From Burkholderiaceae bacterium (GTDB lineage: Bacteria > Pseudomonadota > Gammaproteobacteria > Burkholderiales > Burkholderiaceae_C), in assembly GCA_919902775.1 (NCBI GenBank), contig CAKKRJ010000003.1, forward strand, positions 186,001-250,000: a stretch of DNA of 64,000 nt, in the 5' to 3' direction. Both the position numbers and the translations under genes were made by a program. Positions 1-13,675 of the stretch are shown piece after piece; positions within the stretch are counted from its first letter, which is position 1; every line of letters begins with the position of its first letter. The notes beneath the pieces were generated by a model that worked only from the letters and a program-made list of their open reading frames with translations, ran no database searches and was not told the DNA's origin.

Positions 1-2
1 CA

Positions 3-308
3 GTTGAACACTTTGATCAATATCTCGATCGAGCAAGCTTATCGTTGAGTGCATCCGATGGCGAGGTATCTGGCATGGCGCTTTACAACATGGTTCTCTC
101 AAGTTGGGCTGTTTTTTCTGAAAAATCATTCCCGCTTAAAGTTTATGTTGCGGACGAGCGAAAGTATTTCAATCTTGACTACGAGGCAGACCTAAGTTCA
201 ATCAATAATGAGAGCTTGGACTTGATTGCTCGTATACGAGCTGTTGGAGTATTTAAAAATGATGAAGGTCCAGGAGGGCTAATGGTTAGGGTAATGCGCA
301 GTACCTAA
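3..308 (+). CDS. 3' end of an unidentified gene (5' truncated by window edge)
   Basis: The frame is open from the left edge to a TAA at 306-308, giving about 101 residues of a longer protein; an in-frame TTG at 45 and ATG at 75 are not needed as starts. I recognise no motif. The segment is mixed alpha/beta in character with many acidic residues. Base composition is visibly AT-richer than the phage and metabolic genes further right, as for the next two genes, which suggests an accessory region. Function unknown; it may belong with the small genes that follow. Confidence 0.5.
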   Translation, partial: VEHFDQYLDRASLSLSASDGEVSGMALYNMVLSSWAVFSEKSFPLKVYVADERKYFNLDYEADLSSINNESLDLIARIRAVGVFKNDEGPGGLMVRVMRST

Positions 309-400
309 AACTTCAGCTGTAAGGGACACTTAAACAGCTTGTTTCGCCAGGTGCCTGTTCACTTATCACATCAAATTTGAAATTTTAAGGAGCCAACCAT

Positions 401-604
401 ATGGGCGATGTAAATATCAAATCCAAGAATCAATCTGGAGGTGTCACGGCTCAAAATGTGAATGTCGGAAATTTTGAACCATTTTCGATGATTCAGTCCC
501 CGAAGAAAGAGGGAAAACTGAAAGCAGTGATATGGTGGATTTTTGGCTTGCTTGGCGCAGCGGCTGCTATCGTGACAGTATTGACATATTTTCAACCAAA
601 ATAA
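401..604 (+). CDS. small single-span membrane protein with Asn-rich N-terminal motif
   Basis: A 67-residue protein with a good ribosome binding site (AAGGAG about 8 bases before the ATG). Residues 1-26 form an Asn/Gly-rich segment (I-x-S-x-NQ-x-GG-x-TA-x-x-VN-x-G) that is closely repeated in the next protein. Residues about 43-63 form one hydrophobic helix (IWWIFGLLGAAAAIVTVLTY) with a short polar C-terminus, so it is probably an inner-membrane protein with its N-terminus on one side. It lies 10 bp ahead of the next gene and is probably co-transcribed. Function unknown. The shared N-terminus suggests that the two proteins assemble together or are alternative versions of one scaffold; that is inference. 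Confidence 0.65.
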   Translation: MGDVNIKSKNQSGGVTAQNVNVGNFEPFSMIQSPKKEGKLKAVIWWIFGLLGAAAAIVTVLTYFQPK

Positions 605-3347: not shown

Positions 3348-3828
3348 ACGTGAAACCTTCAAGATCGAGGGCCTGGCCGAACTAGGCAAAGCCCTGCGTG
3401 AATTGCCAGAACGAGTCGCCAGAAACGGCCTGCGCGTCTCCGTGTACGCAGGGGCCAAGGTTGTCCGGGACGAAGCCCGTGCCCGGGCACCCAAGGCCGC
3501 CCAGTCTTTGGGGCCGAACCAGCCACCACCGGGCACCCTCAAGCGCTCGGTGATCATGAAGCACATCCCAGAGCTCTCCAGCCTCACGCGTCAGACCTTC
3601 TTTGTGACCGTGCGCCACGGCAAGAAGTACCGCAAGCAGGGCAAAAAGGGCAACCTCTCACAAGATGCCTGGTACTGGCGTTTCGTGGAGTTTGGCACCC
3701 GAAAAATGCGCGCGCGGCCATTCCTGAGACCTGCACTGGAAGCCAGGCGGCGCGAAGCGGGGCAGGCCATGAAGGACCGGTTGAGCGAGCGCATCGAGAT
3801 GGAAGCCAGCAAGCTCTCCCGGAAATAG
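3340..3828 (+). CDS. HK97 gp10-like tail completion/neck protein
   Basis: A 162-residue protein. The C-terminal motif (WYWRFVEFGTRKMRARPFLRPALE, here positions about 114-138) is the hallmark of the HK97-gp10 family, which helps connect head and tail. The N-terminal half is a helix followed by the VRDEARARAPK segment also seen in the family. The start at 3340 lies four bases before the TAA of the adaptor fragment; longer upstream readings are explained by that fragment in another frame. Length is normal, so this gene looks intact within a broken morphogenesis operon. Confidence 0.85.
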   Translation: MAKRETFKIEGLAELGKALRELPERVARNGLRVSVYAGAKVVRDEARARAPKAAQSLGPNQPPPGTLKRSVIMKHIPELSSLTRQTFFVTVRHGKKYRKQGKKGNLSQDAWYWRFVEFGTRKMRARPFLRPALEARRREAGQAMKDRLSERIEMEASKLSRK

Positions 3829-3830
3829 CC

Positions 3831-4190
3831 GTGCAGGATTTCTATGACGCCATCAAGGATCTGGCCGGGGGTGAGGTCTACGCGCTTGTCGCTGCAGAGA
3901 ACACCCAGTACCCGGCCATCGTCTACACGCCCATCGGCCAGGAGCACATCTTCGGCATCGATGGGCTCAATTTGTCACGAGGCCTGCAGCGCGTGCGCGT
4001 GCAGGTCGACACCTACGCCAGAACGTACCAGGAGGCCTTGAACCTGCAAGACCAGGTCCTGGTGGCGCTTTTGGCGGACAAGAGCACCGTTGCCGATGTG
4101 CGCATGGGACTCACTGAATTTGAAGATCAGGCCCGGCTGTACCGGGTGAGCGTGGACTACACCTACTACCGACAGGGCAGTTCACCATGA
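3831..4190 (+). CDS. DUF3168-like tail completion (tail terminator) protein
   Basis: A 119-residue protein from a GTG at 3831, two bases after the preceding stop. Segments YPAIVYTPIG and LQRVRVQVDTYARTYQEALNLQDQV are typical of DUF3168/gpU-like tail terminator proteins that cap the tail tube at its head-proximal end. It sits in the conserved order gp10-like, DUF3168, tail tube. The family length is 110-140 residues, so it is complete. Confidence 0.8.
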   Translation: MQDFYDAIKDLAGGEVYALVAAENTQYPAIVYTPIGQEHIFGIDGLNLSRGLQRVRVQVDTYARTYQEALNLQDQVLVALLADKSTVADVRMGLTEFEDQARLYRVSVDYTYYRQGSSP

Positions 4191-4206
4191 AACAAGGAAC
4201 ATGTGC

Positions 4207-4617
4207 ATGAGCAGTACCGCCATCACCGCCCAGGGCATTGCCATTGCCCGCTTTGGCACCACTACCTTTGAAACCATCCCCAATGTGGTCTCGTTTCAGG
4301 GCCCCGGGGGCCAGGCCTCGGTCATCGATGTGACCAATCTGGCCTCCACGGCCAAAGAAAAACGAGTGGGCCTGCGCGACGAAGGGCAGCTCTCGCTCAG
4401 CCTGCACTACAACCCCGAAGACGCAGTCCACCAGGGCTTGCGCAACGACCGCGCCAACCGCATCCGTCGCCAGTTTCGGATCACCTTCACCGATGTGGCA
4501 GCCGCTACCTGGACCTTTTACGGCTACGTCACGCAGTTCAGCGTGCAAGGCGGCGTGGACGCGGTGGTTGAAGCCAGCGTGACCATTGAAATCGACGGCG
4601 ACATCACAGAAAGTTAA
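4207..4617 (+). CDS. major tail tube protein
   Basis: A 136-residue protein. It has the features of siphovirus tail tube proteins: a Gln-rich early strand, the motif VIDVTNLAST and a long C-terminal beta segment ending VEASVTIEIDGDI. The start at 4207 is preferred over 4201 because AAGGAAC lies at a proper distance only from 4207. It precedes the tail assembly chaperone genes, as expected. It would form the inner tube of a non-contractile tail; no sheath gene is present. Confidence 0.8.
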   Translation: MSSTAITAQGIAIARFGTTTFETIPNVVSFQGPGGQASVIDVTNLASTAKEKRVGLRDEGQLSLSLHYNPEDAVHQGLRNDRANRIRRQFRITFTDVAAATWTFYGYVTQFSVQGGVDAVVEASVTIEIDGDITES

Positions 4618-4621
4618 AACC

Positions 4622-4987
4622 ATGAATCTCCTGTCCAAAGAGGCCATCCTGGCCGCCGATGATTTGCCGCGTGAAGTCGTGAGCGTTCCCGAGTGGGGCG
4701 GTGTGGTGCATGTGCGCACCATGACCGGTACCGACCGCGATGCCTTCGAAGCCAGCCTGATCACAAAAGAATCCGTCCCGTCGTCCAAAGACCAACGCAT
4801 GCACAACGTCCGCGCGCGTCTGGTTGCGCTCACCTTGTGTGATGAGTCGGGCGAGCGCTTGTTCCTGGATGGTGAGGTCGACGCTTTGGGCCGCAAAAGT
4901 GCCCGCGCGCTGGACCGGGTGTTTGCCGTGGCCCAGCGCTTGAACGGCATTGGCATCGATGAGGCCCAAGCCGCAAAAAACGCCTGA
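4622..4987 (+). CDS. tail assembly chaperone, short form (lambda gpG-like)
   Basis: A 121-residue protein starting four bases after the tail tube stop. The position between tube and tape measure, the N-terminal LSKEAILAADDL segment and the region VHVRTMTGTDRDAFEAS are typical of siphophage tail chaperones. The last codons are GCA-AAA-AAC-GCC-TGA, containing the slippery heptamer A-AAA-AAC in register. A share of ribosomes should slip by -1 and continue into the 4981-5373 frame to make the long G-T form that binds the tape measure. Confidence 0.8.
   Translation: MNLLSKEAILAADDLPREVVSVPEWGGVVHVRTMTGTDRDAFEASLITKESVPSSKDQRMHNVRARLVALTLCDESGERLFLDGEVDALGRKSARALDRVFAVAQRLNGIGIDEAQAAKNA
4975..4981 (+). 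promoter_or_regulatory. programmed -1 ribosomal frameshift site A-AAA-AAC
   Basis: The heptamer A AAA AAC (4975-4981) is in the zero frame of the upstream chaperone gene, four codons before its TGA at 4985. A -1 shift here leads into frame CGC-CTG-ATC, which is open without stops to 5373. The following bases are GC-rich and could fold, but I did not establish a pseudoknot. Such sites between the G and T reading frames are well established in siphophages. Confidence 0.8.
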
Positions 4988-5373
4988 TCGCCAGCCCCGC
5001 CCGGCGCTTTGTGTTTCGCCTGGCGCTGGCTTTGGGTATGCCGGTGCGGGAGTTACTGGCGCGCATTGGCTCGGATGAGCTCACCGAGTGGATGGCGTTT
5101 TATCAACTGGAGCCCTTTGGCGACTTTCGGGCGGACTTGCGCTCGGCCATCGTGGCGTCCACCTTGGCCAACGCCCACCGCAGCAAAGAGGGCAAGCCCT
5201 TCACACCCGAGGACTTCATGCCCTTTGTGGAGAAGCACCACAAAGAGCGCCGCTCAGATCAGCCCAAGGCCTCTGAGCTGGATACATCAAGGTTGAACAT
5301 CGAACGCTTCAAAGCCATGTTCGCGCACCGGATCAAAAGCCCGGATCAAAAGGTAGGACACCCCTATGGCTGA
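4981..5373 (+). CDS. tail assembly chaperone T-domain, made by -1 frameshift
   Basis: This frame is open from the slippery site to 5373 and encodes about 130 residues, joined to the upstream chaperone after its penultimate Lys codons. The GMPVRELLARIGSDELTEWMAFYQLEPFG segment is typical of the DUF4035-like T partner. There is a GTG at 5011, but no ribosome binding site, consistent with synthesis only as a fusion starting at 4622. It overlaps the tape measure start at 5366 by eight bases. The T domain recruits tape measure protein in lambda; the same role is inferred here. Confidence 0.75.
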   Translation, partial: RLIASPARRFVFRLALALGMPVRELLARIGSDELTEWMAFYQLEPFGDFRADLRSAIVASTLANAHRSKEGKPFTPEDFMPFVEKHHKERRSDQPKASELDTSRLNIERFKAMFAHRIKSPDQKVGHPYG

Positions 5374-6862
5374 TATCGGCTCATTGGTCATCAAACTTGC
5401 TGCCGATACTGCCGAGTTTCAGGCCGATCTCGGGCGCAGTGCGCGTTTACTGGACAAGCACGCCTCGGACATGAAAGCTTCGCTGCAGCAAGTGGCGAGC
5501 GTTGCCCGTACCGCATTTGCTGTCGTCATTGGTACCACCTCGGTGGCCGCGTTGCGCGACTTTGTCGTCCATACCCTGGAGACCTCGGCTGCGCTGCAGG
5601 GCCTGGCCGAGCAAACCGGTGCAAGCGCCACAGCGCTGTCGGGCTTTGCGCCAGTGGCGTCCATCTCGGGCACCGCGATGGACGCCATTGGTGCGAGCCT
5701 TGCCAAACTCTCCAAAGGTCTGGCTGGCGTGGACGATGAGACGGCGGGTGCCACCAAGGCGCTTCAGTTTCTGGGTGTCCGTGCCAAGGATGCGAGCGGC
5801 AATCTGCGCGATCCGGCCGAGGTCATGAACGATGTGGCCCTGAAGTTGTCCGAATTTGAAGATGGCGCTGGCAAGACGGCCCTGGCCATGGAGCTCTTTG
5901 GCAAGTCGGGCGCGTCCATGCTGCCCTTCCTCAAAGACCTCGCAGAAAACCAGGACCTGAACATCCGCCTCACGGCCCAGCAGATCGAGGAAGCAGACAA
6001 CGCCTCCAAGGCGTTGGCCCGCATGAAAGCCGAATCGGGTTTTGTAGCGCAGACCCTGGTCACGGCCGCCATTCCGTCCATGACCGTGCTGGCGCAGGAG
6101 CTCAAACAGGTGCTGTTGGGCACTGACGATGCCGTGGGCGGTATCCAGCGTCTGCGCACCGATGGCGCGCTCACCACCTGGGCGCAGAACACGGCGTACG
6201 CCATCGCCGTGGTCATCGACGCCCTGCGCGGCATCGGCCAGACCATCAAGTCGGTGATTGGCAGTTTCCAGGCGGTGTGGGCAGACATCGAACTGGCAGG
6301 GACATTTTTAGCGGGAGGCGAGGGACTCAACCCGTTTTCTGAGGAGAACCGTGCACGCCTCAAAGCGGCGCTGGACAAACGCAACGCGATCGTCGAGCAG
6401 GCGAATCAGAACTACGTCGAGCTGTGGGACATGCCACTCTTGGCCGATGCGGTCAGCAAGCGCTTTGATGACATCCGCAAAGCCACTGACGCGAGCAGCA
6501 CCGAAACGACTGCACCGGCTCCCCGCAAGCGCCTGAACTACAGCACCGCCACCACGAGCGTCACAGCCACGGCCATGGCGGGCATCGACAGTGAGCTCAA
6601 GCGCCTGCAAGGCCTGGTGGATGTGGAGTCGGGCAGCCTACACCGCAGCAGACGTGCTGGCCAAGCTGCTCACGGTGGATGGCTCTGGCTCGGGTCTGGA
6701 CGCCGACCTGCTCGATGGACAGCACGCCAGCGCTTTTGCTTCGGCGTCGCACAACCACAATGCAGCCTATCTGGGCATCAGCGCCAAGGCGACAGATTCC
6801 GATCGGCTCGATGGCTACGACTCATCGGCCTTTGTCCGCTCGGTCAATGGTGGTGGTCCTGA
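5366..6862 (+). pseudogene. tape measure protein, truncated and frame-shifted after about residue 423
   Basis: The ORF starts at ATG 5366 with AGGTAGGA upstream. Residues 1-420 look like a phage tape measure N-terminus: VIKLAADTAEFQADLGRSA, a tail-length-measuring domain with long amphipathic helices, and hydrophobic stretches around residues 250-310. Near 6634 (after GLVDVESG) the sequence turns into low-quality Arg/Trp-rich residues that are the wrong frame of the tail-fibre gene. Intact tape measures are usually 700-1500 residues, so the 3' part and the tail-tip genes have been deleted. A functional tail is therefore unlikely. Confidence 0.7.
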
Positions 6863-7310
6863 CGCAAACGGGAACGCCACAGTCAGCATTGACCTGTCGG
6901 GCCGTGTCGCCCGCAGCGGTGACAGCATGAGCGGTCGGCTCACGCTGCCCAGTCAAACCGTCCAGAGCACCTCGCCCACGATCGACTTTTACGACACGGA
7001 CCAGGGCAGCACCCGCTACTTGCATGTCAACAGCAACCTGATGGGGTTTTTGAAGACCGACGGTAACTGGGACATGTACATGAACAACGGCGGCTCCATG
7101 TGGACTGCTAACTACGGTTGGTTGCATGACTATTTTTTCAGGCAAGTAGCCAATTGTGGCGGCACAGGTTATGCCATCAATTGCTATGGCAGCGGCAACA
7201 TCACAACAAGGCATGACTACGAGTTGATTGATGAAGGAGGTCAGCTGCGGCTGCGCACAGTGAACGTTTTGGCCAATTGCAATTGCAACTGCAATTGCTG
7301 CGGCTGCTGA
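6591..7310 (+). CDS. tail-fibre-like protein ending in an Asn/Cys tail
   Basis: Real similarity to phage tail fibres starts near 6637: TAADVLAKLLTVDGSGSG, then DADLLDGQHAS and a second DRLDGYDSSAF repeat, followed by a beta-rich part with STRYLHV and GNWDMYMNN. The 5' end is lost at the junction with the tape measure; a GTG at 6591 could start translation but has no good ribosome binding site. The last 11 residues are NCNCNCNCCGC, six Cys in alternating pattern, encoded by a run of AAT/AAC-TGC codons. The stop overlaps an ATG at 7310 (TGATG). Downstream lie oxygenase-like and radical SAM genes, so this tail is a candidate substrate; that link is inference. Confidence 0.6.
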   Translation: MSSSACKAWWMWSRAAYTAADVLAKLLTVDGSGSGLDADLLDGQHASAFASASHNHNAAYLGISAKATDSDRLDGYDSSAFVRSVNGGGPDANGNATVSIDLSGRVARSGDSMSGRLTLPSQTVQSTSPTIDFYDTDQGSTRYLHVNSNLMGFLKTDGNWDMYMNNGGSMWTANYGWLHDYFFRQVANCGGTGYAINCYGSGNITTRHDYELIDEGGQLRLRTVNVLANCNCNCNCCGC

Positions 7311-7324
7311 TGGAGAGCTTGTCT

Positions 7325-8119
7325 ATGAAGACCATTCGCATGCCTTACCCCTTGCAAAGCCCTGCAAGCCCCAACAACGCGCAAAGCACCAACAAAGTCC
7401 GTATCGAGCGGATCGATGGTGATTTCTACATCGAACATCTTCTGCCAGCGTATGAAATGGCGCTGGATGAATCGGGTCGTGTCATTGACGAATCCGCGCA
7501 GCCCAGCCTGGCAGGCCATCAAAGTGCCTTCGTCCATACCCTGCGCCAAGTTGACTTGCAACAGTTGGCTCAGGACCCGGGCAATGCCTATACCGTTTGG
7601 CTCTTTGCCTTGCGCGAAAGGCATACCGAGCCGGTCTGGATCAATAAGTTCGCCCAGACTGCTCTTTCCAAAGAAGGGTTCCGTCAATACTGGAACCAGC
7701 AGCCCATGCTGGTCTTGGCCCAGCTTTGGATCCCGCCGCTCGGTCTGGAGCCCTCGCTGGTGCTCATGTGTTCGCCACACGCAGACCAGACCGAAGTGAC
7801 AGGTTTTGAGTTTGAGCACGCTTGGGAAACCAATTCTGTTGCCATGGTCATGGCCTTTCCGCTGTTTCGCATGGCCGATGAGGGCGGCGATCCACGGCGC
7901 ATCCGCATCACGGCGATCAATGACCAAGGGGTGGCGATCCCGGCGTCCGGGCAGGTGCTCCTGAGCACCACGGCCGGAGCCTTGAGCAACAGCCGCCCAG
8001 TCTTGGAGCAAGGGCAAGCCCTGGTCACACTCTTTGGCGCAGATCCAGGGGCCTTGGCCAAGATCAAGCTGGGGTTCAAGTGGTTCAGTGGTGTCGAAGA
8101 GCTGGAGGTGCGGGTGTGA
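7325..8119 (+). CDS. unknown phage protein with C-terminal Ig-like domain
   Basis: A 264-residue protein. ATG 7325 is preferred because GGAGAG lies about seven bases upstream; an in-frame ATG at 7310 overlaps the fibre stop. Residues 1-190 match nothing I know and contain aromatic-rich segments (DGDFYIEHLLPAYEMALDE, WLFALRERHTEPVWINKFAQ). Residues about 195-264 resemble an invasin/Big-1-type Ig domain (ITAINDQGVAIPASGQVLLS). It may be part of the fibre complex or bind the host surface. The stop overlaps the GTG of the next gene, indicating translational coupling. Confidence 0.65.
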   Translation: MKTIRMPYPLQSPASPNNAQSTNKVRIERIDGDFYIEHLLPAYEMALDESGRVIDESAQPSLAGHQSAFVHTLRQVDLQQLAQDPGNAYTVWLFALRERHTEPVWINKFAQTALSKEGFRQYWNQQPMLVLAQLWIPPLGLEPSLVLMCSPHADQTEVTGFEFEHAWETNSVAMVMAFPLFRMADEGGDPRRIRITAINDQGVAIPASGQVLLSTTAGALSNSRPVLEQGQALVTLFGADPGALAKIKLGFKWFSGVEELEVRV

Positions 8120-9105
8120 CCCTTGCTGAAAATGTCCGTGTGCGCTTCGTGCAGCGGGTCGATGAGTTCACACAGCCGCTGGCCGTAGAGGTTCTGGCCG
8201 AAGCTGATCGCCTGTCTTGGCGACTGTGGGAGCCATTGGAGATGTTGCGGCCAGAGGGTCCGGTCGGCAAGGTCACCCAGATGCAGTATCGGGTCCATCC
8301 TTCAGGTGCTTCAATGTCAGACCCTGATTCATTGCCGAGGCGGGGCCAGCCCAGTCCCTACACGTTGCCGGTTCGCTCGGACATGCCCGTCGGGCACACC
8401 GAGACCATTGATGGGCAGCCATGGGGCCTCGTCGATGAAATCGCCCTAGATCCACAGGCCATGCGCGCCAAACCGCGCATGTACGGGCAGCACCTCAGCG
8501 ACTGGGCCGCGTGGATGTTTGTCCTGTGCACGGACACCTGGCGCTTCATGACGCCCTTTAATCGCCATGTTCTGACTCGTAGCAGCCAGGTAGACAGCGA
8601 AGGCTTTACCGCCTTGTCCTTGCCGCTGACCAAGGCGCGCCAGAAGCACTTGGTGGCCGGGTCTTGCCTGGTGCCATGGCATGAACTGCCGCTCAGTGCT
8701 CAGATGGTGCTTCGCATCAACGCCTACCCCGGGGGCGCGCTGTGGACCAATCTACCTGTGGATGAACATGTGCGCTATGCCAAGACAAGCGATGCACTGC
8801 TTGGACACGCGCACACCATTACCAGCCTGCACGCGCATTTGCCCACTCTCAGTGTTCATGTCCCGCCAGTGGTTGAACCTGATCAGTGGGTGGAGCTTGA
8901 AGTCAGGTCATCTGAGCCTGTCGATGCCTGGCTGCATGTGCACGCTGTCTCGGGTTATGTCCCGCACCACCGCGTGCGCATGCAAGCAGGTCGCGCCCAA
9001 GTGCGGGCACTGGCCTTGGGTCTGCGTCCCGGAGAAAACCTTCGCCTTCAATTTGGATTAGGGGCCGTCACCGCACTGGCCCAAGGAGTGATTCATGTCA
9101 TTTGA
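8116..9105 (+). CDS. unknown phage protein, possible baseplate or fibre partner
   Basis: A 329-residue protein from GTG 8116, overlapping the preceding stop by four bases. It is Trp/His-rich and mainly beta in character, with repeated strands such as SVHVPPVVEPDQWVELEVRS and a C-terminal LRLQFGLGAV. No enzyme motif or signal peptide is visible. It shares operon position with the fibre-like and Ig-domain proteins, so a structural or adaptor role in the fibre is plausible. A terminator follows 90 bp after its stop. Confidence 0.6.
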   Translation: MTLAENVRVRFVQRVDEFTQPLAVEVLAEADRLSWRLWEPLEMLRPEGPVGKVTQMQYRVHPSGASMSDPDSLPRRGQPSPYTLPVRSDMPVGHTETIDGQPWGLVDEIALDPQAMRAKPRMYGQHLSDWAAWMFVLCTDTWRFMTPFNRHVLTRSSQVDSEGFTALSLPLTKARQKHLVAGSCLVPWHELPLSAQMVLRINAYPGGALWTNLPVDEHVRYAKTSDALLGHAHTITSLHAHLPTLSVHVPPVVEPDQWVELEVRSSEPVDAWLHVHAVSGYVPHHRVRMQAGRAQVRALALGLRPGENLRLQFGLGAVTALAQGVIHVI

Positions 9106-9814
9106 CACATCAGCGCACGCCCCACCACCCATCATGGCGGTGGCAACACAAGCCAGCCCGCACCCGGCCTCATCGGCCTTCGCCTCAGAAAACCACCCAA
9201 CGCAATCCCAGCGTTGGGTTTTTTCTTTGTGGCCCAGCACCGTGCATGTTCAGCCGTCGGGCTTGTCACCGTTGCTGCTTGAGCGGTTGGCGCAAGCCGT
9301 CCTGCGGGAGGACGTCCACCACCGCTGGGGCCCCGAGGCCTGGCAGTGCCGCAGCCACGACTTGCTGCAGGCAGGCATATCTCCAGCAGATGGTCTTGGC
9401 GACATGCTGGCGGAGGTCCGCGCGCACCTGCAATCCATCTGGGGCACATACCGCTATCGGCTGAGCGCCCACATCATGCGATGCCAGCCAGGATTCCATG
9501 TGACAGAGCACATTGCCAGCGCACGCGCTGGACTCAACACGGTGTTGTTTTTGCAAGGCGACTACCCGTTGACCGACAGCCCCAACGTTCGAACATCCGG
9601 CTGCATGGTCATTGGCAATCCCGCCAAACGCGTCAATGAAAGTCTACTGCCCTGGGAGACGCCGGTGCATTTCCCGATCACCCCGCAGCCGGGGTTGATG
9701 GTGACCATGCCGCTGTGCACACCGCACGGTTACTTTCCGCTGCGCACCCAGTCGTGCGACACCTTGGCCATTGAGTTTCACTCGGTGGCCGAACCGGAGG
9801 CTGATCATGCTTGA
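9095..9814 (+). CDS. probable 2OG-Fe(II) oxygenase-like (double-stranded beta-helix) protein
   Basis: The ORF opens at ATG 9095, overlapping the previous gene, but a strong terminator hairpin lies inside it at 9196-9224, so the true start may be TTG 9227 or GTG 9242. The C-terminal 130 residues look like a degenerate double-stranded beta-helix: HVTEHIASARAGLNTVLFLQ, then LMVTMPLCTPHGYFPL, then DTLAIEFHS, the order of metal-binding and late strands in 2OG oxygenases. The first metal ligand is not a clear H-x-D. The gene overlaps the clearer oxygenase at 9807. It could be an oxygenase homologue or an inactive partner. Confidence 0.5.
   Translation: MSFDTSAHAPPPIMAVATQASPHPASSAFASENHPTQSQRWVFSLWPSTVHVQPSGLSPLLLERLAQAVLREDVHHRWGPEAWQCRSHDLLQAGISPADGLGDMLAEVRAHLQSIWGTYRYRLSAHIMRCQPGFHVTEHIASARAGLNTVLFLQGDYPLTDSPNVRTSGCMVIGNPAKRVNESLLPWETPVHFPITPQPGLMVTMPLCTPHGYFPLRTQSCDTLAIEFHSVAEPEADHA
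9196..9224 (+). terminator. Rho-independent terminator inside the 9095 ORF
   Basis: A perfect 8-bp stem CCCAACGC/GCGTTGGG with a 7-base loop is followed by six T residues. It lies 90 bp after the stop of the 8116 gene and would end the fibre transcript, or attenuate expression of the oxygenase/radical SAM genes. Confidence 0.8.
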
Positions 9815-10415
9815 TCTGCGCAGCCCAGTTTCATTTGCCGATGGTGTTTTGGATCAGTCGACCTCTCAGGCGCTCATCGATTGGCTGCAGCACCTGCAGT
9901 ACCGCTACTACCGCATCACCAACAAAAACGAGCCAGAGCCTTTCCCGATCTGGCACCGTGAGCTGATGGGGCGGGATTGGCCCATCAACCAAGCCTCTGA
10001 CTACAGCTGCACGCCGCAATTCCTGCAGGACGAGACGAGCGTGCTGCCTCAAGTCTGGGTGTCCTGCATGCGCGCACTGAAGTTACCCGTCATGACCCAG
10101 TGCCATGGCGTGTACGCCAATGCCAACACCCATGGCAACGAGGGCAATGTCCACATCGACAGCCAGCATCCACTGGACAGAACCCTTTTGATTTATGGCG
10201 TGCGGCACTGGCAAGCAGGGTGGGGTGGGGAGACAGTGTTTTACGACCAGGACGATCGCCTGCTCGGCTCGGTCATGCCCGCACCTGCCCGGGCGGTGTT
10301 CTTTGCCGGACACATCCGCCATGGCGTCAACCCCATCTCCCGCGCCTGCCGCGATCTGCGGCCAGTGCTGGTATTCAAAACGCGGCTTCAGGAGCCGCAA
10401 AAGGCCCTCTCATGA
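9807..10415 (+). CDS. 2OG-Fe(II) oxygenase family protein
   Basis: A 202-residue protein with the prolyl-4-hydroxylase-type signature: NVHIDSQH supplies H116-x-D118, GHIRHGVNPI supplies the distal His (about 172), and RDLRPVLVFK gives the Arg that would bind 2-oxoglutarate. Such enzymes hydroxylate protein residues or small molecules using Fe(II), O2 and 2-oxoglutarate. The ATG overlaps the stop of the previous gene, and the stop overlaps the radical SAM start (ATGA), so all three are probably translated together. I infer that the substrate is a nearby phage protein; Asn in the fibre tail is one candidate. Confidence 0.8.
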   Translation: MLDLRSPVSFADGVLDQSTSQALIDWLQHLQYRYYRITNKNEPEPFPIWHRELMGRDWPINQASDYSCTPQFLQDETSVLPQVWVSCMRALKLPVMTQCHGVYANANTHGNEGNVHIDSQHPLDRTLLIYGVRHWQAGWGGETVFYDQDDRLLGSVMPAPARAVFFAGHIRHGVNPISRACRDLRPVLVFKTRLQEPQKALS

Positions 10416-11770
10416 AATTTGAAATTCACGCCTTGCACCCGGACGGCCAAAAAGTCTTGCTCCACTACAACAACCAGCTGTCTGAGCTGACTTGGCAGGA
10501 CGGCACGCCCGTGCTGCCGGTTCAACCGGGAACGTTTCGCGATGCCTCTGTGGTCTCGGTCAACCAGCCTGGTCGCAAGGGGAATGTCCGCGTTCTCAAA
10601 ATCAGCCTGGGCCTGTCCTGCAATTACGAATGCAGTTACTGCAACCAGCGCTTTGTGCCGCATGCGAATGCCAGCCATCCGGATGACATAGAGCCCTTCA
10701 TCAGTCAACTGACGGATGCGCTGATTGAACCCCCAGAGCGCATCGAGTTCTGGGGCGGTGAGCCGCTGGTCTATTGGAAGACGCTCAAACCGCTGGCTGA
10801 GCGCCTGCGCGGCCTGTATCCACATGCCCAGTTCAGCTTGATCACCAACGGCAGCTTGCTCGACGCGCAAAAGATCGAGTGGATCGATCAGATGGGGTTT
10901 TCTGTAGGCTTGTCACATGACGGTCCGGGCCAGTCCAGCAGAGGTCCAGATCCGCTCAGCGACCCTGAGGGACACGCTGCCATCATGGCGCTCTATGCCC
11001 GGCTTCATCCACAAGGCCGCATCAGCATCAATGCCATGGTGCATGCGGGCAACCAGAGCCGCGCACAGATTCAGGCCTGGCTGCAGCAACGGTTTGGCCA
11101 GGATGTGCGGATCGGGGAGGGGGCTTTCATTGACCCCTATGACGAGGGTGGCTTGGCAGCAACCCTGCAAACTCCTCAGGACCATTTGCGTTTCAGGGCT
11201 CAGGCCTACAAAGAACTGCGGCTGGGCTTGGCTTCTCGCATGTCGGTTGCGCAGCAACGCATCATGGATTTCGTGCAATCCATCCGGACCGCGCGTCCGG
11301 CCTCATCACTGGGTCAAAAGTGCAGCATGGACCAGGCCAGCCATCTGGCCGTGGACCTGCATGGCAATGTGCTCACCTGCCAAAACGTGAGCGCCAAAGC
11401 TATCGCGCCCAACGGCCAACCGCACAAGATCGGCCAACTCTCAAACCTGGCCAAGGTACAGATGCGGACTGCTACCCACTGGAGCCAGAGAGCCGAGTGC
11501 CCCCGCTGTCCAGCCTTGCAGCTGTGCAAGGGCTCGTGCATGTTTCTGGACGGGCCGCTTTGGGATGCCGGTTGTGACGCAGCGTTTTCTGACAATGTCC
11601 CCTTTCTGGCCGCTGCCATCGAATACCTGACCGGCTGCATCCCGTACTACATCGACGGTGACTTCAGGCAGGACCGTAAGGACGTTTTCGGGCAAGTCCA
11701 CGGCGTTCCACCGCTACCCCGCAAACGCGTGATTCCCATCGTGGCGCACGACACGTCTGTCGCCGCCTGA
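10412..11770 (+). CDS. radical SAM/SPASM peptide-modifying enzyme
   Basis: A 452-residue protein. Residues 70-77 are C-NYE-C-SY-C, the CxxxCxxC that binds the 4Fe-4S/SAM cluster, followed by FWGGEP at about 113-118. The C-terminal part has seven Cys near 304, 323, 363, 366, 372, 376 and 388 (CPRCPALQLCKGSC pattern), as in SPASM domains holding auxiliary clusters. SPASM proteins include anaerobic sulfatase maturases and RiPP maturases that form thioether or C-C links on peptides. The last 60 residues are outside the usual domain. Close overlap with the oxygenase gene and position behind the Cys-tailed fibre suggest a protein-modifying role; the substrate is inferred. Confidence 0.9.
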   Translation: MKFEIHALHPDGQKVLLHYNNQLSELTWQDGTPVLPVQPGTFRDASVVSVNQPGRKGNVRVLKISLGLSCNYECSYCNQRFVPHANASHPDDIEPFISQLTDALIEPPERIEFWGGEPLVYWKTLKPLAERLRGLYPHAQFSLITNGSLLDAQKIEWIDQMGFSVGLSHDGPGQSSRGPDPLSDPEGHAAIMALYARLHPQGRISINAMVHAGNQSRAQIQAWLQQRFGQDVRIGEGAFIDPYDEGGLAATLQTPQDHLRFRAQAYKELRLGLASRMSVAQQRIMDFVQSIRTARPASSLGQKCSMDQASHLAVDLHGNVLTCQNVSAKAIAPNGQPHKIGQLSNLAKVQMRTATHWSQRAECPRCPALQLCKGSCMFLDGPLWDAGCDAAFSDNVPFLAAAIEYLTGCIPYYIDGDFRQDRKDVFGQVHGVPPLPRKRVIPIVAHDTSVAA

Positions 11771-11827: not shown

Positions 11828-11842
11828 ACTTTGGAGACTCGT

Positions 11843-12226
11843 ATGCCTGAACCTACAAGCTCTGGCGTGGCAGGAGCCGCAGTGGCTTACAAGGCCCTGG
11901 GAGGCACGGCTGCAGCCGTAGCCAGTGGCGCTACTTTGGCCGCCGTGGTGGTCATGCTCATGACGCCACCGCGCGACAAACGTGAATGGGCCGTGGGGCT
12001 CATCAGTACCGTGGTCTCCAGCATTGGGGGTGGCGCCATCACAGTAGAGCATTTCCAGTTACACCACTGGGCGTTTTCCACAGTGGGTCTGTGCGCCCTG
12101 GGTGGGCTCATGTTCGCCTGTGGATTGCCAGGCTGGGCCATGGTGCGCTGGGTGTTCAACTTCATTGGCCAGCGCCGCGATGCTTCTATCGATGAAGTGG
12201 CCAAGGACGTGAAGGAAATGCTGTGA
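11843..12226 (+). CDS. phage holin-like membrane protein
   Basis: A 127-residue protein with GGAGA seven bases before ATG. It has hydrophobic segments at about residues 22-42, 50-62 and 78-105 and a charged C-terminus (DEVAKDVKEML). Size, membrane segments and position directly before an endolysin fit a holin, which opens the inner membrane for lysis. No family-specific motif is known to me. The end overlaps the endolysin GTG by four bases. Confidence 0.7.
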   Translation: MPEPTSSGVAGAAVAYKALGGTAAAVASGATLAAVVVMLMTPPRDKREWAVGLISTVVSSIGGGAITVEHFQLHHWAFSTVGLCALGGLMFACGLPGWAMVRWVFNFIGQRRDASIDEVAKDVKEML

Positions 12227-13321: not shown

Positions 13322-13675
13322 GTGTCCCCGCCAGAGCGTTCATGCGGGCAACTTAAAGGCCGCCAGATCATCGAGGCCAAGCGCCTGATCGAAAAACGCC
13401 AGCAGCTCGGCCCGTCCTCACCCAATGCAGCGCAGATCAAACCACCCACCTCCAGCTATAGCCTGGTGCGCACCTACCAAAAAGAGGTGGAGCGGCAGCG
13501 CAAGATGGTCCTCAAAGCCGAGCACGCGCACCAGCGTCTGCTGCTGGTGGTGCAGGGCCTCAAAAAACTCTTTGCCGACGAAAACTTTGTCACCCTGTTG
13601 CGCGCCGAGGGGCTGGACACCCTGCCCAAGTACTTGGCCGAACGCATCACCCACTTTGAAGGAGCCCCAGCATGA
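13322..13675 (+). pseudogene. C-terminal fragment of a RepB/ParB-like partition protein
   Basis: From a GTG at 13322, about 117 residues; from GRQIIEAKRLI onward it resembles the C-terminal region of plasmid-partition RepB-like (PF07506-type) proteins: helical KEVERQRKMVLKAEHAHQRL, then LKKLFADENFVTLLRAEGLD. The N-terminal ParB domain is missing, and the DNA before about 13355 belongs to the phage side, so a junction lies here. It overlaps the next, intact paralogue by four bases, suggesting that an original two-gene operon lost the 5' half of its first gene. Confidence 0.6.

Follow-up and report, generated by a model that had tools for sequence, protein, structure and literature searches.

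Fibre tips determine which cell a phage binds. PapB and the CteB/SCIFF maturases are radical S-adenosylmethionine (SAM) enzymes with a SPASM domain that form Cys thioether links, anSME matures sulfatases, and QhpD matures a subunit of amine dehydrogenase. Here we analyse a cassette in a 64,000-nucleotide stretch of a Burkholderiaceae bacterium genome (contig CAKKRJ010000003.1, positions 186,001 to 250,000 of the forward strand; the whole stretch is called the window), in which a tail-fibre gene ending in alternating Asn and Cys residues is followed by oxygenase-like genes and a radical SAM/SPASM gene (window positions 6591-11770). Across several protein scaffolds, a C-terminal Asn/Cys tail of this kind is tightly paired with a SPASM radical SAM gene, and one oxygenase family tracks the way in which the tail ends. 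Many uncultured phages appear to pair an Asn-Cys fibre end with a radical SAM gene of their own, often together with oxygenases, and these neighbouring enzymes very probably modify the fibre tip chemically. We read the cassette as a phage-borne system for covalent maturation of the fibre tip, resembling those that make ribosomally synthesized and post-translationally modified peptides (RiPPs), and we give this reading a probability of about 0.8.

Comparison with described systems

In the PapB and CteB systems the substrate is a small leader-core precursor, whereas here a virion-type protein would be modified at its C-terminus; the window enzyme also scores far below the cut-offs of the PapB ranthipeptide maturase family (NF047865; 53.1 bits against 340) and the SCIFF maturase family (TIGR03974; 32.1 against 425), and belongs to neither. 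The families of anSME and QhpD are likewise out of reach (46.6 against 349 bits and 37.3 against 453); those enzymes recognize another substrate motif, while the present enzyme is phage-carried and often accompanied by oxygenases. In the strict sense a RiPP is a small leader-core precursor from which the core is released, and the locus does not fit that definition: by eye there is no separate leader or peptidase, and inspection of 14 of the 46 gap clusters by eye showed neither a peptidase nor an exporter. A canonical RiPP with a leader peptide was rejected as no small precursor was seen, although the chemistry may well be RiPP-like. The names of the Flm families suggest a 2-oxoglutarate (2OG) oxygenase paired with a SPASM enzyme. 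One oxygenase of the window (cluster c3) resembles FlmC (NF052475) at 51.7 bits, far below the cut-off of 240 and outside that family, and the window radical SAM enzyme matches the FlmE/OhkG radical SAM maturase (NF052473) weakly, at 23.3 bits of 500; a search of the open-licence literature on the Flm names gave no work on an Flm system among the titles listed. Some relatives carry a self-processing domain of phage fibres, the S74 chaperone or Hint, immediately behind the tail; what precedes it here is an Asn/Cys tail, with an adjoining radical SAM gene in phages JWF and 2-1 and several contigs.

Radical SAM cassettes are reported from the host-recognition cluster of pelagimyophages, with no role given in the excerpts consulted (PMC7029224). 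The excerpts consulted of PMC3322345, PMC7029224 and PMC9959647 hold no mention of a Cys tail, with no search aimed at Cys tails made there. Among the titles and abstract beginnings listed from the open-licence literature, none pointed to a fibre system of tail and radical SAM enzyme. The component families are known, and their use as a virion-tip maturation cassette is undescribed in the open-licence literature searched.

Pairing of the tail with the radical SAM gene

The window tail is NCNCNCNCCGC (7275..7307, + strand), and relatives carry the same kind of tail. For the search that started from the enzyme we used 92 loci from enzyme and profile scans plus two phage records, the enzyme relatives being the best 80 of at least 541. 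A tail was called by a fixed rule, namely an upstream plus-strand open reading frame (ORF) that ends in an Asn/Asp-Cys repeat or has one at the site before a Hint-like motif. In 81 loci the sequence reached 1.5 kb or more upstream of the enzyme, and 78 of these had a tail by this rule. As a control, the rule was applied throughout the same 81 loci: it fitted 78 of the 4181 ORFs with 60 residues or more on the plus strand, not one of which lay behind the enzyme, and none of 4513 on the minus strand. Its misses were L027, which has 1.66 kb upstream, L079, where the fibre by eye ends in ACNCAGGACDCG, and L058, taken up below. A distant branch of the enzyme comprised 24 loci (21 of them at 32-38% identity), and the rule held for 16 of the 20 that extend 2 kb or more upstream; in three others (L405, L407 and L409) a tail is followed by Hint-like sequence and was overlooked by the rule, the Hint-like sequence of L405 matching Pfam at 3.2e-05, below the cut-off. 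The last of the 20 is L410, described further below. The sequence-only reading of this DNA had proposed looking beside radical SAM genes of other phages for a Cys-tailed fibre-like ORF, and had held that the idea would fall if homologues of the enzyme mostly lacked such a neighbour; the 78 of 81 loci bear out the first and go against the second.

The converse scan was blind to the enzyme: viral contigs were searched with a degenerate nucleotide pattern encoding NCNCNC[N/D]C, which yielded at least 120 stretches. A repeat counted as C-terminal when it ended an ORF of at least 60 residues or preceded a Hint-like motif, and an enzyme was called from a family profile match at E 1e-5. Where at least 3.5 kb lay downstream, 60 of 60 listed C-terminal tails had an enzyme gene in the same orientation no more than 7.5 kb away, as did 1 of 15 other repeat contexts with enough sequence (L125, whose tail is cut by the contig start). 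With less than 3.5 kb downstream, the figures were 18 of 34 and 0 of 11. In all, 158 tail-enzyme pairs were gathered, which form 82 clusters at 90% identity and 48 at 70%.

Two further queries were made with neighbouring sequences. The protein of family phrog_1024, which lies behind the cassette and outside it, served as a neutral anchor (best 80 of 99 relatives); among the 50 of these 80 loci with at least 7.9 kb upstream, 48 had both tail and enzyme, two had neither, and none was discordant. Those two carry other genes at the cassette site. The body of the fibre, with its tail removed, found at least 56 loci. Of those listed, 40 continue for 3.5 kb or more downstream: 29 had both tail and enzyme, nine had neither, one (L330) had the tail only, and one had the enzyme behind a fibre whose end, ACNCACCGCC, was overlooked by the rule; the 16 listed with less downstream sequence divided into seven with both, seven with neither and two with the tail only.

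A linkage of this kind could also come about if tail and enzymes moved as a block with the host-recognition module and had no substrate relation at all, and it is true that both lie within the fibre module and that the pelagimyophage cassettes were reported, in the part of the source seen, from a host-recognition cluster (PMC7029224). We regard such hitchhiking as very unlikely: the enzyme was missing behind tail-less fibres, mostly weakly similar ones, in 9 of 9 listed loci where 3.5 kb or more followed, both anchor loci that carry other genes lack tail and enzyme alike, and the pairing persists while the tail switches scaffold and its end covaries with an oxygenase. Co-occurrence and covariation thus both support what the sequence-only reading had proposed, enzymes acting on the fibre tail, and from them we infer the modification itself.

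Composition and scaffolds of the tail

The 117 distinct tails have 3-7 repeats each. Among 561 residues preceding a Cys, 75.8% are Asn, 10.5% Asp and 6.8% Ala, together 93%. The tail DNA is a short tandem hexanucleotide, as a microsatellite would be, and the earlier reading had itself named a purely local codon repeat, missing from close homologues of the fibre, as fatal to its proposal. However, 47 of the 64 possible DNA versions of NCNCNC were observed, both Cys codons are mixed in 63 of the 117 tails, and the residue before Cys is constrained as described; this variety of codons led us to reject a microsatellite origin, and the chance that the tail is a functionless repeat is negligible.

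A body of at least 40 residues without the tail is present in 152 of the 158 tail-bearing proteins, and these bodies fall into 10 clusters, the largest of 128, under single linkage, which joins clusters loosely. The tail-carrying ORFs range from about 64 to 691 residues, with several matching tail-fibre families; of ten compared with PHROGs, five had tail-fibre matches (one only at E 0.008), one matched only PHROGs of unknown function, and four had no match at E 0.01. The Achromobacter phages JWF and 2-1 have CFPAGT, with which a Hint domain begins, immediately behind the tail, and in JWF this region matches Hom_end_hint above the cut-off (3e-12). Hint-type matches after the tail in L081, L164, L175 and L183 all lie below the cut-off, and in L212, whose contig extends 0.3 kb past the tail, an S74 domain follows above the cut-off (1.1e-06). 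Domains of these types may release the tail as a mature C-terminus.

Metal ions occur at fibre and spike tips, as in T4 gp37 and the P2 spike, and alternating Cys residues make a natural set of metal ligands. The tail might then be a metal-binding or disulfide-bonded tip, with metallothionein-like CxC spacing, and the enzymes might modify another site or protein. A tip of that sort needs no radical SAM enzyme, yet one stands beside all 60 listed tails with 3.5 kb or more downstream; moreover the tail is common to ten scaffold clusters, and one type of oxygenase follows the tail end. We consider this explanation improbable, and favour covalent maturation of the tail.

Some relatives show further Asn/Cys-rich sequence. 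Long stretches lie well past the tail in L134:2309-2710, L129:4364-4891, L164:210-1283 and L212:12706-13347, and in L158 and L390-L392 a second small Asn/Cys-tailed protein (cluster c8) is encoded near the first.

The radical SAM/SPASM enzyme

The enzyme gene (10412..11770, + strand) encodes a protein that belongs to the radical SAM family (PF04055, 30.0 bits, cut-off 29.5) and carries a SPASM domain (TIGR04085, 31.8 bits, cut-off 27). The CxxxCxxC motif (C70, C74, C77) and the seven SPASM Cys that the sequence-only reading had pointed out (304, 323, 363, 366, 372, 376 and 388) are indeed invariant across 40 aligned proteins. A structural model of the enzyme has CteB, ChlB and anSME as its top matches. 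In the N-terminal region, where some RiPP maturases carry a RiPP recognition element (RRE), the model, compared as a whole, aligns with CteB from residue 1 on (1..409) and has strands at 2-28. PapB is the top NCBIfam match of two distant relatives, and the distant relative in L181 scores 83.6 bits on NF047865.

These relationships bear on the kind of chemistry. Proteusins contain alternating D and L residues that give a beta-helix, and a radical SAM enzyme might in the same manner epimerise or otherwise alter the tail with no thioethers formed. It is an unlikely alternative in our view, as the top structural matches are a thioether former (CteB), ChlB and a protein maturase (anSME), PapB is the best family match for the two distant relatives, and epimerisation leaves Cys at every second position unexplained. 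For the maturation that we propose, the chemistry would most likely be Cys-to-Asn/Asp thioether linkage plus hydroxylation.

Oxygenases and accessory proteins

The c3 gene (9807..10415, + strand) encodes a 2OG-Fe(II) oxygenase (2OG-FeII_Oxy_3, PF13640, 31.9 bits, cut-off 27; E 2.6e-07), and the H-x-D...H...R pattern noted earlier corresponds to H116, D118, H172 and R185, invariant in four aligned proteins. Its presence tracks the tail end: c3 was found in 22 of 22 loci where the tail ends in CC[G/D/S] plus at most three residues, although at least three of the 22 are repeat sightings of contigs already counted. None of the 136 other loci had it. Counted by radical SAM clusters, the figures are 4/4 against 0/42 at 70% identity and 2/2 against 0/22 at 60%. 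Out of sample, among 24 new radical SAM contigs from the anchor scans, all 7 tails of this type came with c3 and none of the 17 others did; several of these contigs are close relatives, and for some the tail sequence, though not the c3 status, was known before the rule was framed. Scans with c3 as query gave five contigs outside the first set with both c3 and the enzyme, all having CC-G tails, four of which are those of the out-of-sample test, making eight contigs together; ten weak c3 relatives had neither tail nor enzyme within the sequence examined. One pair of loci, L261 and L262, has the stretch before the tail end in common (GNTAFNCRTNCNCNC), and the ACCGCC end comes with c3 and the NCSTDC end without it.

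Upstream of c3 lies a 2OG oxygenase-like protein of cluster c1 (9095..9814, + strand), which had no Pfam match itself. The earlier description of it as oxygenase-like stands as regards a relationship with the 2OG enzymes, L010 of the same cluster matching 2OG-FeII_Oxy_5 (PF13759) above the cut-off and L032 below it. Two His residues are conserved in 60 of 60 family members, but the window protein has H-I-A where most relatives have H-x-D/E/H, and it lacks the usual facial triad, H-x-D/E ... H. Loss of the acid occurs in 2OG halogenases and in dead enzymes. The window protein may not be an ordinary hydroxylase.

The remaining accessory proteins belong to cluster c0, a family present in 112 of the 158 cassettes. 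The first (7310..8119, + strand, within ORF 7277-8119) has a C-terminal immunoglobulin (Ig)-like domain; an AlphaFold2 model of it (7325-8116) reached a mean confidence (pLDDT) of 72, and structure matches were confined to the Ig-like end at residues 176-264. The second follows on the + strand at 8080..9105, which are the bounds of the ORF. Searches of Pfam, PHROG and NCBIfam gave no match to either ORF up to E 1, and one c0 protein used as a query against phages had no match either.

The cassette in the window and its second copy

All of the window ORFs in 6591-11770 run in the same direction and most overlap one another, just as the sequence-only reading had it, and family searches agree with its list of genes behind the fibre: two unknown proteins, an oxygenase-like protein, a 2OG-Fe(II) oxygenase and a radical SAM/SPASM enzyme. 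The fibre ORF (6591..7310, + strand) ends in VLANCNCNCNCCGC, with six Cys in its last eleven residues, confirming the six-Cys Asn/Cys end described before. A search of the window for the repeat pattern, tolerating one mismatch, gave a single hit, against 0.01 expected from shuffles. The assignment to tail fibres holds (phrog_7389, 5e-10, and other PHROG tail fiber families, in a tail module; the fibre of the relative L004 matches a tail-fibre PHROG at 3.1e-11), while the GTG at 6591 does not hold as the gene start: homology to four compared relatives and to a second cassette of the same genome begins at 6632-6633. Counting from the ATG of L004, about the first 86 fibre codons are absent from the window copy, which is the 3' part of the gene. 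At the junction near 6632 a tape-measure-like gene (ORF 5366-6862, matching tape-measure PHROGs in a frame different from that of the fibre) runs into the middle of the fibre gene. A second break relative to L004 and L025 lies near 13345, where about 3.3 kb is absent relative to L004 and the prophage of the second cassette. The two junctions (5366-6632 and 13345) would fit a decaying or mosaic prophage, and the window fibre copy is probably no working gene. The second cassette, elsewhere in the genome, has an enzyme 85% identical to that of the window and a fibre ORF of 339 codons (stop to stop) with the tail NCDCNCNCCGC. Downstream of the window's radical SAM gene come the phrog_1024 protein (11831..12226, + strand, 1.1e-42), which we take to be a holin although PHROGs names no function for it, and an endolysin, both by PHROG matches.

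Observations that weigh against fibre-tip maturation

A number of observations speak against the reading proposed here or reduce its weight. The window fibre gene is 5'-truncated, L058 has the enzyme (matching from residue 32) and no tail, and in L410 a Cys run, DCDCAC, is found in a non-adjacent downstream ORF with S74 and is not C-terminal. The tail of L330 comes without an enzyme on its 7.7 kb contig. No enzyme was seen behind 16 of the 34 tails with less than 3.5 kb downstream, and 15 of the 78 tail-first enzyme matches are weaker than 1e-60, a group that may include other SPASM enzymes. The shorter anchor loci (n = 30) gave 20 with enzyme and no tail, nine with neither and one with both; they are uninformative because the tail sits up to 7.5 kb upstream of the phrog_1024 gene. 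All of these counts are of contigs that overlap between scans and include many close relatives, and are not independent events. The top NCBIfam match of the window enzyme is a viperin-like family (NF038283) at 54.0 bits, with PapB second, and this lies well below the viperin cut-off of 180. None of six accessory families is present in 14 of the 158 cassettes, and the oxygenases are therefore optional. The c3 rule was framed post hoc, after the pattern was first noticed, and three cellular genomes (G035, G080 and G154) carry more distant enzyme relatives (E 1e-75 to 1e-126) with no Cys tail. Finally, the mature product may bind metal.

On L330 itself, the region 3823-7698 encodes the tail NCNCNCK, an accessory protein and, by eye, hydroxylase- and desaturase-like proteins, two of which had no match when searched against Pfam; the contig ends without a radical SAM gene.

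A model for maturation of the fibre tip

The following pathway can be envisioned. A fibre or similar protein bears a C-terminal (Asn/Asp-Cys)3-7 tail, as seen in the sequences, and the adjoining SPASM radical SAM enzyme would act on it, a step that co-occurrence strongly supports. The enzyme would most likely take a hydrogen off an Asn or Asp carbon and attach the Cys sulfur there as a thioether, because of its relatives CteB and PapB and the preference for Asn and Asp, and the links could form within one chain or between fibre chains. Non-haem iron oxygenases, where present, may introduce hydroxyl or related groups, and the covariation suggests that the c3 family needs or acts on the CC-G/D end. 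The Ig-like c0 protein might bind or present the tail or the fibre. A self-processing domain of the Hint or S74 type, clear in JWF and L212 and weaker elsewhere, would expose the tail of some relatives by cleavage. The product could be a stiff, cross-linked or ligand-binding tip that meets the host surface. With slightly more confidence than doubt, we extend this to the proposal that a widespread class of phages finishes the fibre tip as a knob or multi-chain cap, held by thioether links and hydroxylated in part, that the tail-end code and the oxygenase set are a matched, exchangeable pair, and that self-cleavage by Hint or S74 domains uncovers the tip in certain lineages.

If this is true, phages diversify the chemistry, beyond sequence alone, of the surface that meets the host, and the host-contacting part of a virus would be made in a way that is new. 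Maturation of the tip would bring chemistry outside the twenty amino acids to host recognition, and RiPP-type biosynthesis to virion assembly. The enzyme/tail pairs would also offer a natural set for peptide cross-linking, and the isolated phages JWF and 2-1 carry the system, which makes it directly testable. A role is also suggested for the radical SAM genes of phage host-recognition modules, as far as these are described in the part of PMC7029224 consulted.

Distribution and related loci

Of 399 genomes from the order, 6 carry an enzyme relative at E 1e-60, and a tail lies beside the enzyme in the window's own genome and in G060 and G129; in the class, 1 of 369 genomes, the window's own, had a relative at that threshold. 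Among 50,697 phage records there were 23 enzyme matches at 1e-5, and only three records, two of JWF and one of 2-1, matched at least 80% of the enzyme's length; three further subfamily queries returned the same three records only. The system may have been overlooked for that reason. More distant enzymes in Thermus phage Cumys, Campylobacter phage CP20 and MT836452 were set aside, no Asn/Cys tail being apparent by eye in the neighbours inspected.

In Cumys (L225:4982-7272) a radical SAM gene of the tail module adjoins a gene for an H-x-D repeat protein, and the C-terminus of the enzyme itself has HGD motifs resembling the repeats of its neighbour; this locus is possibly a parallel system using a different repeat. 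In L360 a cellular relative of the enzyme is encoded behind a protein with the C-terminal sequence SFIANSYVV, which by eye resembles the end of a Hint domain.

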